Shown one piece after another: positions 1,520 through 23,110 of a stretch of 37,796 nucleotides of DNA (position 1 is the stretch's first letter; each line of letters starts with the position of its first letter). Both the position numbers and the translations under genes were made by a program. The notes beneath the pieces were generated by a model, which worked only from the letters and a program-made list of their open reading frames with translations, searched no databases and was not told the DNA's origin. The stretch is from Alphaproteobacteria bacterium. Lineage in GTDB: Bacteria; Pseudomonadota; Alphaproteobacteria; Rhizobiales; Aestuariivirgaceae. The stretch lies in assembly GCA_024279045.1 (NCBI GenBank), contig JAJRRZ010000027.1, positions 1-37,796 on the forward strand, given 5' to 3'.

Positions 1520-2029
1520 TCATTCGATGATCATCAGCGGTTCGTCGAACTCCACCGGCTGGCCGTCTTCCACCAGGATGGCCTTCACCACGCCGGCGCG
1601 CGGGGCCGGGATCTGATTCATGGTCTTCATCGCCTCGATGATCAGCAGCGTCTGCCCCTCCTTGACCTGCTGGCCGACCTCCACGAACGGCTCCGCTCCG
1701 GGCGCGGGGGCGCGATAGGCGGTGCCAACCATCGGCGCACGCACCACGCCGGGGTGGCTGGCGGCATCGGCTTCCGCCGGGCCTTCCTCGACCTGAGCGG
1801 TCTTCTGCTCAGGCGCAGCGGCGGGTGCGGCACTCGCCACGGCAGGCGCAGCAACCTGCGCCACCACCTGCTGCGCTGGCAGGTCGCGCGCCAGGCGCAG
1901 GTGCAGGTTGTCGAGGTTCAGCTCGATTTCCGTCAGCTCCGTCTCGCGCAGCAGTTCGGCCAGCTGGCGGATGGTATCCATGTCGATGGCGGATGCGCCA
2001 GAAGGAATCTTGCCTTTTTTCTCAGCCAT
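1520..2029 (-). CDS. accB: Acetyl-CoA carboxylase biotin carboxyl carrier protein AccB
   Basis: 169-aa ORF with biotinyl motif EAMKTMNQI and Ala/Pro-rich linker; directly upstream of accC. Confidence 0.96.
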
Positions 2030-2075
2030 GTCGGAGCCTTCCCGGTTCGAGCCTTTCCAGCAGTTGGTTGTTGCC

Positions 2076-2537
2076 TCAGATCTCGATGCTGTCGTCCTTG
2101 CTCAATCGCCACGCCAATGCCTGCAGCGCCAGCTCGTAGCCATCCGCGCCCAGTCCGGCGATGATGCCATCGGCCAGCGGGGCAATGAGCGACTTGTGGC
2201 GAAATGATTCGCGTGCGTGAATGTTGGAAAGGTGCACCTCGATGATCAGTCCATCAAAGGCTCGCAATGCATCATGAATGGCCACCGAGGTATGCGTGTA
2301 GGCAGCGGCGTTGATGATGATGGCTGCCGCGCCCGTCTGAATGGCATCATGTATATCGGCGACGATTTCACCTTCGCCGTTGCGTTGGCGGAAAGCGATT
2401 GCCAGCCCCAGCCGGGTGGCGGCCTGCTGGCAGCGGCGCTCGATATCGGCCAGAGTTACGTGGCCATAAGTGTCCGGTTCCCGCCGGCCAAGCAGGTTCA
2501 GGTTCGGACCGTTGAGGATATGGACAAGATCGGCCAT
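2076..2537 (-). CDS. aroQ: Type II 3-dehydroquinate dehydratase
   Basis: Start set at [31 protein letters not shown]-type motif, [28 protein letters not shown]. Confidence 0.95.
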
Positions 2538-2849
2538 GTGCGTAGCGCCAGATCCCTGTGCTTGCGTCATGCCTGCCATGACGCGTGGCCAGAACATGCG
2601 GAATCGCGAAGCTTACATTGCATTGGTGTTGCCCGAAAAACGCGCCGGGCGCAAGCGAAAGCCCCGTTATCGCTTCGCAAGGGGCGGGCCGTAGAGCGCG
2701 CTCAATGCCAGCGCAAAATGCCGCACCTGTCTTCATTTGCCGCCACCACGCTATATTATCCTCGGCCAGAATTCCGACCGATCGAGTCGGGTATGTGTTT
2801 TCCGCATGCTGTCAAGATCAATGCTTCCAATATCGACGGAGTTGGGAAA

Positions 2850-3866
2850 ATGAGCGGTAATCCGACACAGGCGTCCGCCACGCCCGGCGAGGCAGCACAT
2901 CCCGCCGAGGGCATGCGGCTGAAATTCTTTCCCGTGTCGTTCTTCGCCCTGACCATGGGCCTGTCGGGCCTGACACTGGCCTGGCGCAAGGGAGCGGAGC
3001 TACTGGGCACCACGGGGCTGGTTTCGCACCTTCTGGGGCTGCTCACCCTTGCCGTCTTCGCCGTGTTGCTGGGCTTCTACGTGATGAAGCTGCTGCGCTA
3101 TCCGGAAGCGGTGAAGAACGAGTTCAACCATCCGGTGATGAGCGCCTTCGCGCCGACCATCTCCATCTCGCTGCTTCTGCTGGCGCTGTGCATGCTGCCG
3201 CTGACGCCACGTTTTGCCACCTTGCTGTGGGCGGCGGGTGCGGCGCTGCATCTGGTGCTGACCCTGCACATCGTGCGCAGCTGGGTCCACAATGACCACT
3301 TCGAGCTGGGCCACATCAACCCGGCATGGTTCATCCCGGCGGTGGGCAATGTGGTGGCGCCGCTGGCCGGTGTGCCGCTGGGACACACGGAGCTGTCATG
3401 GTTCTTCTTTGGCATCGGCATCTCCTTCTGGGTGATACTGCTGGTCATCGTTTTCTACCGCATCCTCTTTCATGACCCGCTGCCACCAATGCTGCTGCCC
3501 ACCCTGTTCATCCTCATTGCCCCGCCGGCAGTGGGCTTTCTCGCCTATGTCGAGCTGAACGGCGGCAATATCGATGCCTTTGCCCGCGTGCTCTACCATC
3601 TGGCGCTGTTCTTCACGCTGTTGATGCTCATCGAACTGCCGCGTTTCCTGAGGCTTCCGTTCTTCCTGTCATGGTGGGCCTATTCGTTTCCCCTGGCAGC
3701 CATGACCACGGCCACCTTCGTCATGGCCGAGAAGGTGGGCGGCGCTTTTTTCCAGTGGCTGGCGCTGATCATGCTGGTGGGGCTGAGCGTGCTCATTGCC
3801 TGGCTGGCCTTCAACACCGCGCGCGCCATCCGGGCAGGGAAGATCTGCCAGCCGCCGAAACACTGA
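2850..3866 (+). CDS. SLAC1/TehA-family membrane transporter (tellurite-resistance/dicarboxylate transporter-like)
   Basis: Start set at MSGNPTQASATPG...; about 10 hydrophobic segments, FFPVSFFALTMGLSGL and HINPAWFIPAVGNVVAPLAG motifs. Confidence 0.85.
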   Translation: MSGNPTQASATPGEAAHPAEGMRLKFFPVSFFALTMGLSGLTLAWRKGAELLGTTGLVSHLLGLLTLAVFAVLLGFYVMKLLRYPEAVKNEFNHPVMSAFAPTISISLLLLALCMLPLTPRFATLLWAAGAALHLVLTLHIVRSWVHNDHFELGHINPAWFIPAVGNVVAPLAGVPLGHTELSWFFFGIGISFWVILLVIVFYRILFHDPLPPMLLPTLFILIAPPAVGFLAYVELNGGNIDAFARVLYHLALFFTLLMLIELPRFLRLPFFLSWWAYSFPLAAMTTATFVMAEKVGGAFFQWLALIMLVGLSVLIAWLAFNTARAIRAGKICQPPKH

Positions 3867-20889: not shown

Positions 20890-22050
20890 ATGCGGATCAT
20901 CACTGAAACGGCGGCGCTGCGCGATCTCTGCCGGGATCTCGCGGCGGAAGACTACATCACCGTGGATACTGAATTCATCCGCGAACGCACCTATTGGGCC
21001 AGGTTGTGCCTGATCCAGGTGGCCGGCGCACGCGAGGCGGTCATCATCGACCCGTTGGCCGAAGGCATCGACCTGTCGCCATTCTTCGACCTGCTGGCCG
21101 ATGAGAGGGTGCTGAAAGTGTTCCATGCCGGGCGGCAGGACGTGGAAATCTTCCATCATCTTGCCGGACGCATACCCGCGCCGTTGTTCGACACGCAGAT
21201 CGCCGCCATGGTCTGCGGCTTCGGCGATCAGGTGAGTTATGGCGCGCTGGTGGAAAGGCTCACCGGCGTGCGAATCGACAAGGGCTCGCGCTTCACCGAC
21301 TGGGCGCGCCGCCCGCTGTCGCAGCGGCAACTGGAGTATGCCCTGGCCGATGTTACGCACCTGCGCGAGGCCTACGAGAAGCTACGCGAGGAACTACGCC
21401 GCTCCGGGCGCGAACCCTGGCTGAAGGAAGAGCTGGCCATTCTCACCAGCCGTGAAACCTACGAACAGGACGTCGACGAGGCATGGCGGCGCATCAAATT
21501 TCGCCCGCGTGATGCGCGGCAACTGGCTTTGCTGCAGCGCCTGGCCCGCTGGCGCGAGGAGGAAGCCCAGCGCCGCGACCTACCGCGCCGCCGCATATTG
21601 AAGGACGAGGCCATTGTCGAGATCGCCAGTGAAATGCCACGCACCGAGAAGGCATTGGCCGCCTTGCGCAATGTCTCCGCCGATCAGGCCCGGAAGGGGG
21701 CTGGCAAGGCCATCGTGAAGCTGGTGGAGGAGGTGCTGGCCCTGCCAAAGGAACAACTTCCACAGCTGGCGAAACGCGAAAAGCCCCACCCGGAAGGCAC
21801 CCAGGCGCGCGCCGACATCCTGAAGTTGGCGCTCAAGATCGTCTGCGAACGAGAGAACATTGCACCGAAACTCCTTGCCTCCGCCGCCGACCTGGAAAAA
21901 CTGGCCGCCGGGCGCGAGGATCTGCCAGTGCTGAAGGGCTGGCGCCGCGAGGTTTTTGGCGATCTGGCATTGCAATTGCTGCGCGGCGAGCGGGTCATTG
22001 GCCTGAAAAGTGGCCGCCCCGCCATCCTGCCGGCCCGGGGTGAGTGCTGA
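20890..22050 (+). CDS. rnd: Ribonuclease D
   Basis: DYITVDTEFIRERTYWARLCLIQVAG; VLKVFHAGRQDVEIF; YALADVTHLREAYEKL; HRDC-like C-terminus. Confidence 0.95.
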   Translation: MRIITETAALRDLCRDLAAEDYITVDTEFIRERTYWARLCLIQVAGAREAVIIDPLAEGIDLSPFFDLLADERVLKVFHAGRQDVEIFHHLAGRIPAPLFDTQIAAMVCGFGDQVSYGALVERLTGVRIDKGSRFTDWARRPLSQRQLEYALADVTHLREAYEKLREELRRSGREPWLKEELAILTSRETYEQDVDEAWRRIKFRPRDARQLALLQRLARWREEEAQRRDLPRRRILKDEAIVEIASEMPRTEKALAALRNVSADQARKGAGKAIVKLVEEVLALPKEQLPQLAKREKPHPEGTQARADILKLALKIVCERENIAPKLLASAADLEKLAAGREDLPVLKGWRREVFGDLALQLLRGERVIGLKSGRPAILPARGEC

Positions 22051-22185: not shown

Positions 22186-22349
22186 TGGGCCCGGGGCCCA
22201 TTAAGAGGCATGGTAGGTGCGTCATTTGCGAAAAATATCAGCGTTTTTTGCCCGCCGGGAATGCCTGTAGGTATTTCCAAGGGCAAAAAGGCGTTGATAT
22301 GCAGCATGAACGCCACAGATGCCGTAAAAATTTATGGGTCCTGTCCCAA
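22186..22349. mobile_element. Diverged MITE-like hairpin element (E1)
   Basis: TIR-like TGGGCCCGGGGCCCAT / rc TTGGGACAGGACCCAT, internal ATATCA(G/A)CG..TTTTTGCCC arms, GGGAATGCC-TGTA-GGTATTTCC apex at centre. Confidence 0.6.
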
Positions 22350-22373
22350 GGCAGGCGGGAAATCCCGAACATC

Positions 22374-22538
22374 TAGGGTCTGGTCTCAATAAATGAGTGC
22401 TTCTCATGGGCATTTTGGCAAAATAGCAGCGGCTTTTCGTTCGCAGGCAATAGTGGAGCTATTGGCAAGAACGAAAAACCGCCTGATATGCAGCCAAAAT
22501 GCCCATGGGGAGTGCTCAGGTATTGAGTCCAGACCCTA
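22374..22538. mobile_element. MITE-like long palindromic element (E2), TA-flanked
   Basis: TAGGGTCTGG(T)CTCAATA...TATTGAG(T)CCAGACCCTA; arms pair along whole length (about 80% by eye), apex CAATAG-tggag-CTATTG exactly at the midpoint. Confidence 0.8.
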
Positions 22539-22597
22539 GTGCAACACCTCTGAAATGGCTCGCCTGCACAAGGCGCAACATATGGAGAGAAAGGCAC

Positions 22598-23110
22598 ATG
22601 CAAAACACCGGGCCTGACCTGGACGAACGCTACCGCAAGGGGTTCCCTGTTTCGTGGGACCAGTTCCACCGGGATGCCCGCGCGCTGGCCTGGCGGCTGG
22701 CGGAGAAGGGCCCATTTCATGCAGTGCTGGCCATTACCCGAGGCGGGTTGGTGCCTGCGGCCATCGTCGCGCGCGAGCTTGACCTGCGCGACATCGAAAC
22801 CATTGGCATCGCTTCCTACGATTTCAGCAGGCAGGGCGAACTGAACATGCTGAAAAGGCCGGCGGAGAAATATCTGAAGGATGGCGGCGCCGGGGTGCTG
22901 GTGGTGGATGACCTGGTGGACACCGGCAAGACGCTGAAATTCACCCGCGAGCTCTTGCCGAACGCGCATTACGCCTGCGTTTATGCCAAGCCCGCCGGGG
23001 TGCAACTGGTGGATACTTTCATTACCGAGGTGTCGCAGGATACTTGGATTTTCCTGCCGTGGGACATGGCGCTGCAATTCGCGCCCCCCATCCGCGAAAG
23101 CGGCGCCTGA
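22598..23110 (+). CDS. gpt: Xanthine (hypoxanthine/guanine) phosphoribosyltransferase Gpt-like
   Basis: [66 protein letters not shown]. Confidence 0.9.

Follow-up and report, generated by a model that had tools for sequence, protein, structure and literature searches.

RUP elements of Streptococcus and Correia elements of Neisseria are intergenic sequences of about 100–150 bp that tend to be palindromic and are thought to be mobilised in trans. IS711 is an insertion sequence (IS) that falls within the IS427 group of the IS5 family. In Brucella, this IS measures 842 bp, carries two overlapping open reading frames, duplicates TA within a YTAR target and prefers landing in palindromic Bru-RS repeats (PMC2266754). 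In Paracoccus yeei, MITEPye1 is a non-autonomous transposable element (MITE) derived from IS1182 (PMC11578231), and RUP and Correia elements have been treated alongside MITEs (PMC2229807, PMC10969869).

Here we describe an element, named A, in a 37,796-nt stretch of alphaproteobacterial DNA (the window, which is contig 52 of a 2.23-Mb draft genome in 300 contigs). Element A is very probably a non-autonomous palindromic MITE on which an IS5-family transposase probably acts in trans, and which occupies YTAR sites in about 75 copies. It shares the spacer between rnd and gpt with a copy of a second family, B. The features of the locus are as follows.

20890–22050, + strand: rnd, ribonuclease D, the upstream gene (TIGR01388, 424 bits; cut-off 299)
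22188–22343, − strand: copy of MITE family B (85% identity to the family) with degraded tips; older, and absent from the first-pass annotation
22373–22539, + strand: MITE family A copy, from CTAG to CTAG, its body plus flanking TA being 22374–22538 (from copies, fold and alignment)
22374–22375, no strand: left TA of the YTAR target, here C-TA-G (from the sequence and the target logo of 98 tips)
22376–22393, + strand: left terminal inverted repeat, GGGTCTGGTCTCAATAAA (from matches to the 15-mer tip in the same genome)
22448–22464, no strand: hairpin apex CAATAG-TGGAG-CTATTG, centre 22456
22519–22536, − strand: right terminal inverted repeat, GGGTCTGGACTCAATACC in the − strand reading (18/18, with TA, against one end of the IS in L167, described below)
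22537–22538, no strand: right TA of the target (from the sequence)
22598–23110, + strand: gpt, xanthine phosphoribosyltransferase, the downstream gene (NF006613, 234 bits; cut-off 138)

A palindromic element between rnd and gpt

The sequence from 22373 to 22539, CTAGGGTCTGG...CCAGACCCTAG, is an end-to-end palindrome with CTAG at either side. Folded as RNA, 22374–22538 reaches a predicted −106.6 kcal/mol with nearly its whole length paired, against −46.6 ± 3.9 for dinucleotide shuffles (z −15.6; 0 of 200 shuffles as stable). An independent repeat finder recovers arms at 22373–22437 and 22475–22539 with 78% ungapped complementarity, and the only two occurrences of the terminal 18-mer in the window are the ends of element A, where chance predicts 0. 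The palindrome described in the first-pass annotation is thus borne out by fold, repeat finder and terminal 18-mer. Its apex and centre are confirmed by the sequence, and its TA flanks by the sequence and by the aligned flanks of other copies. The further statement that the arms pair over their full length holds for nearly the whole strand, but mismatches and small internal loops make the pairing imperfect. The element is 167 bp long and has no coding potential beyond spurious frames; 58 nt separate it from the gpt start codon downstream (ATG, 22598), and rnd lies upstream.

Dozens of copies at YTAR sites

The same genome holds at least 41 full-length A copies at 93–98% identity (40 of 115 candidate places scored), so that this is a multi-copy repeat, as the first-pass annotation had proposed, and not a single-copy palindrome. 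The 15-mer tip TAGGGTCTGGACTCA matches the genome 152 times at up to two mismatches (reversed control, 0/1), and half of this tip count gives an estimate of about 75 copies. Many of the tip matches lie about 126–140 bases from a contig end, which indicates that the assembly breaks inside the A repeat. Many draft contigs do end within A (for example G000 C5, C94, C133, C149 and C164), and IS and MITE copies are accordingly undercounted. By a crude coding/codon model 36 of the 41 copies are intergenic; the copies have no preferred orientation, and several stand directly at stop codons. Neither a plasmid collection nor a distant blastn search with the element gave a match, and an order-wide scan of 398 genomes for the terminal inverted repeats matched only three genomes in two genera.

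Aligned flanks of the A copies define a target of Y-TA-R, mostly CTAG; the logo of 98 tips reads C or T at position −3, T at −2 and A at −1, followed by G. TA stands at both sides of 23 of the 41 copies, the remainder differing mainly at the outer base, and the 18 of 41 that miss TA on one or both sides exceed the number predicted from a decay of about 4% per site. Across 98 A and 71 B tips, single deviations in the flanking TA fall on the outer base 36 times versus 14 times on the inner, tip-adjacent base, as though this inner base were part of the element. As an account of the non-TA flanks, a model that places the tip-adjacent base in the element, with no duplication, reaches significance for B (p 0.004), whereas A taken alone does not (p 0.23).

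A relative lacks the element at this locus. The gpt gene is present in all 11 genomes of the genus and, within the stretch examined, has rnd adjacent only in G002, where a spacer of about 80 bp without A or B separates the two genes, compared with 547 bp in the window. Of the empty site that the first-pass annotation looked for in relatives, a spacer without the element was therefore found, but its sequence is too diverged for the exact empty junction to be aligned and read. In G002, one locus (L086) carries a single tip with no partner.

The hairpin as transposon or host RNA

A hairpin of such stability, 58 nt upstream of the gpt start codon, could also be a conserved regulatory RNA or attenuator of the host, riboswitch-like or a terminator hairpin, and it may be present in a gpt leader RNA, a possibility raised in the first-pass annotation. 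As a host regulatory RNA, however, the element would have to sit in dozens of copies at unrelated places, and this copy number refutes a gpt-specific element, though a local secondary effect on gpt is conceivable; nor does G002 have an orthologous copy. An Rfam search gave no above-threshold match in or near the element, a search of the rnd–gpt spacer for promoter-like sites gave none, and no U-run follows the stem on the + strand.

Substitutions among the A copies bear on the same point. Private mutations do not distinguish paired from unpaired sites (0.28 versus 0.19 per site; p 0.54), and of the 38 at paired sites 24 break the pair, so that no selection on resident hairpins is visible. Variants shared between copies are found somewhat less often at paired sites (0.157 versus 0.37 per site; p 0.025), which would suit a regulatory RNA. 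If real, this deficit points to constraint during spread, not after insertion. The A copies fold better than the consensus with random substitutions, which appears to stem from the shared variants. After insertion, A copies decay neutrally. Selection on the hairpin as host RNA was considered and dropped, the singletons being free of constraint and not depleted at paired sites. We regard a host regulatory RNA as highly unlikely; in all likelihood the hairpin is part of the transposon.

An IS5-family element with the same ends

The first-pass annotation had named IS630/mariner or IS5-group transposases as candidate helpers for a TA-flanked element. Scanning the 18-base tip across 85,000 species genomes returned 18 stretches, one of which (L167; JAGNKE010000026.1, an alphaproteobacterial MAG) contains a complete IS of 833 bp at 372–1204. 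It runs from TAGGGTCTGGACTCAATAA to TTATTGAGTACAGACCCTA within C-TA-G, with TA at both sides, and its terminal repeats match the A tips at 18/18 and 17/18 positions. Two overlapping frames, ORFA (DUF4096) and ORFB (DDE_Tnp_1), encode transposase halves that both exceed the cut-off of the NCBIfam IS5 model NF033580. In anatomy this IS matches IS711 of Brucella. A full-length IS with the ends of element A, anticipated by the first-pass annotation, therefore exists, and together with the copy number, terminal repeats, TA flanks and element-free spacer it supports the MITE reading made there.

As to the transposase family, the IS5 half of the earlier guess fits the tips and the NF033580 match, but the IS630/mariner half does not. 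Movement by an IS630/Tc1-mariner transposase with a TA target would account for the TA at both sides and the preference for CTAG, but no IS630-type DDE_3 (PF13358) transposase was matched in this genome and the sole complete element found with A tips is an IS5-family IS; we consider it very improbable. Spread as a REP/BIME or REPIN-type repeat by a RAYT (tyrosine) transposase, which would suit a palindromic, mostly intergenic, high-copy sequence, is the most remote of the explanations weighed: element A has 167 bp and 18-bp terminal repeats, compared with 20–40 bp for REPs (PMC3733652), and it combines a fixed, TA-flanked target with tips that match a DDE IS.

The most probable helper is an IS5-family transposase. 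This genome encodes several, those related to the transposase of L167 being at most 45% identical to it over the main length. No IS with exactly the tips of A was found in the 300-contig draft, which is fragmented at repeats and probably lacks the bodies of multi-copy ISs. The nearest IS in this genome, IS-gamma, is of the IS5 family, with the end TAGGCTCCGGACTCAATT and a tip that resembles that of A at 15 of 18 positions. IS-gamma, with tip GGCTCCGGACTCAATT, is inserted at a TA shared with A copies in L199 (C287) and L025 (C216), its body mostly missing from the assembly.

Other MITEs with the same tips have unrelated bodies: one of about 270 bp in G042 (L150, 1500–1770) and, in two other MAGs, ones of about 115 bp (L163, 6610–6726; L178, 6522–6636); all these hosts are proteobacterial MAGs. 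Repetitive frames resembling CRISPR arrays lie near transposase matches at L109 1–580 (G004 C35) and L122 ~1980–3140 (G002 C110).

We infer the following course from these sequences. A MITE of about 163 bp plus TA on each side, almost fully palindromic and without a gene of its own, would be recognised at its terminal repeats, GGGTCTGGWCTCAATA (A-type ends also being written GGGTCTGG and GGGTCTGGACTCAATA), by an IS711-like two-reading-frame IS5-family transposase acting in trans. Insertion at YTAR, mostly CTAG, would leave TA at both sides, and repeated rounds would have spread the element to about 75 copies, mostly intergenic and near stop codons. That placement would follow from the great rarity of YTAR in a GC-rich genome, together with the ends of other elements, which supply sites.

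A neighbouring family and a proposed exchange of tips

The B copy sits just upstream of A, between rnd and A, and the two account for about 320 of the 547 bp between rnd and gpt. At least 42 B copies with ends TAGGCTCAGGACYCATAA were scored in this genome out of 101 candidates, that at 22188–22343 included. The B tips match an IS5-family IS of the same genome: a B-like tip lies just upstream of the transposase start in L100 and just past the transposase C-terminus in L101 and L102. A and B copies often adjoin, with a TA in common. Another element adjoins 15 of the 98 A tips and 18 of the 71 B tips. YTAR occurs at only 14 sites in the 37.8-kb window, two being the ends of element A itself. These counts of adjoining tips led us to consider whether the elements are specially attracted to one another's ends, an idea that was set aside, as this scarcity of sites may suffice.

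Aligned in reverse orientation, the interiors of A and B prove homologous (local score 50, against 31 for the best of 300 shuffles), so that the two families have a homologous core and different tips. The same core occurs across the genus with A or B tips, and both ends are nearly always of the same type. The bodies of a B-tipped copy in G009 (L095) and an A-tipped copy in G010 (L088) are 90% identical, whereas their tips agree at 13 of 18 positions at each end; tips of the same type agree at 15–18 of 18 in most pairs. A tree built from 58 bodies trimmed of their tips requires about three changes of tip type (bootstrap 3–4; shuffled labels 18), although the starred branches alone force only one.

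Several copies have mixed ends. In the core tree, the BB, BA and AA copies of G010 cluster (L237, L238 and L239 among them, whose cores differ little), and the BA copy L238 is recombinant, its left half following the BB copies and its right half an almost exact match to the AA copy L237. In the genome of the window, a B element has an A-type tip at its right end alone (L226), and L131 of G008 also has mixed tips. In our reading, these mixtures arose when copies recombined and so exchanged their ends, and the A and B tip types presumably answer to different transposases, which suggests that these MITEs may change the transposase they parasitise. Tentatively, and with slightly less than even confidence, we propose that a long-lived palindromic core could repeatedly swap its terminal repeats, and hence its IS5-family transposase, via half-and-half recombinants (one end of each type) that regain matched ends; the core, and not the tips, would then be the heritable unit across species of the genus. 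If the tip changes are true, a non-coding element may outlive the loss of its helper by recombining onto the ends of another transposase.

Comparison with known elements

As a high-copy, palindromic MITE of IS5 type, A belongs to a known kind of element, and the apparent repeated, concerted change of tips is the part of specialist interest. Two such families at dozens of copies each in a 2.2-Mb genome also help to explain the broken assembly and part of the intergenic DNA. RUP and Correia elements differ from A in having unrelated sequences and other IS families. MITEPye1 resembles A in being short, lacking an open reading frame, bearing terminal repeats of an IS family, lying between genes and folding into a long stem (PMC11578231). 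By contrast, A has IS5-family tips, a TA target and about 75 copies, compared with 1–3 per chromosome for MITEPye1.

The closest likeness in host is to Bru-RS1 and Bru-RS2, which, by description, are like A roughly 100–160-bp palindromic intergenic repeats from the same order, Hyphomicrobiales, although Bru-RS measures 103–106 bp. Identity of the tips to those of an IS is seen for A itself, and its likeness to the Brucella repeats is one of description. As with IS711 and Bru-RS, an IS of the ~833-bp, two-frame type and MITEs here meet at common YTAR sites, and A and B extend the IS711/Bru-RS picture from Brucella to an uncultured genus of Hyphomicrobiales.
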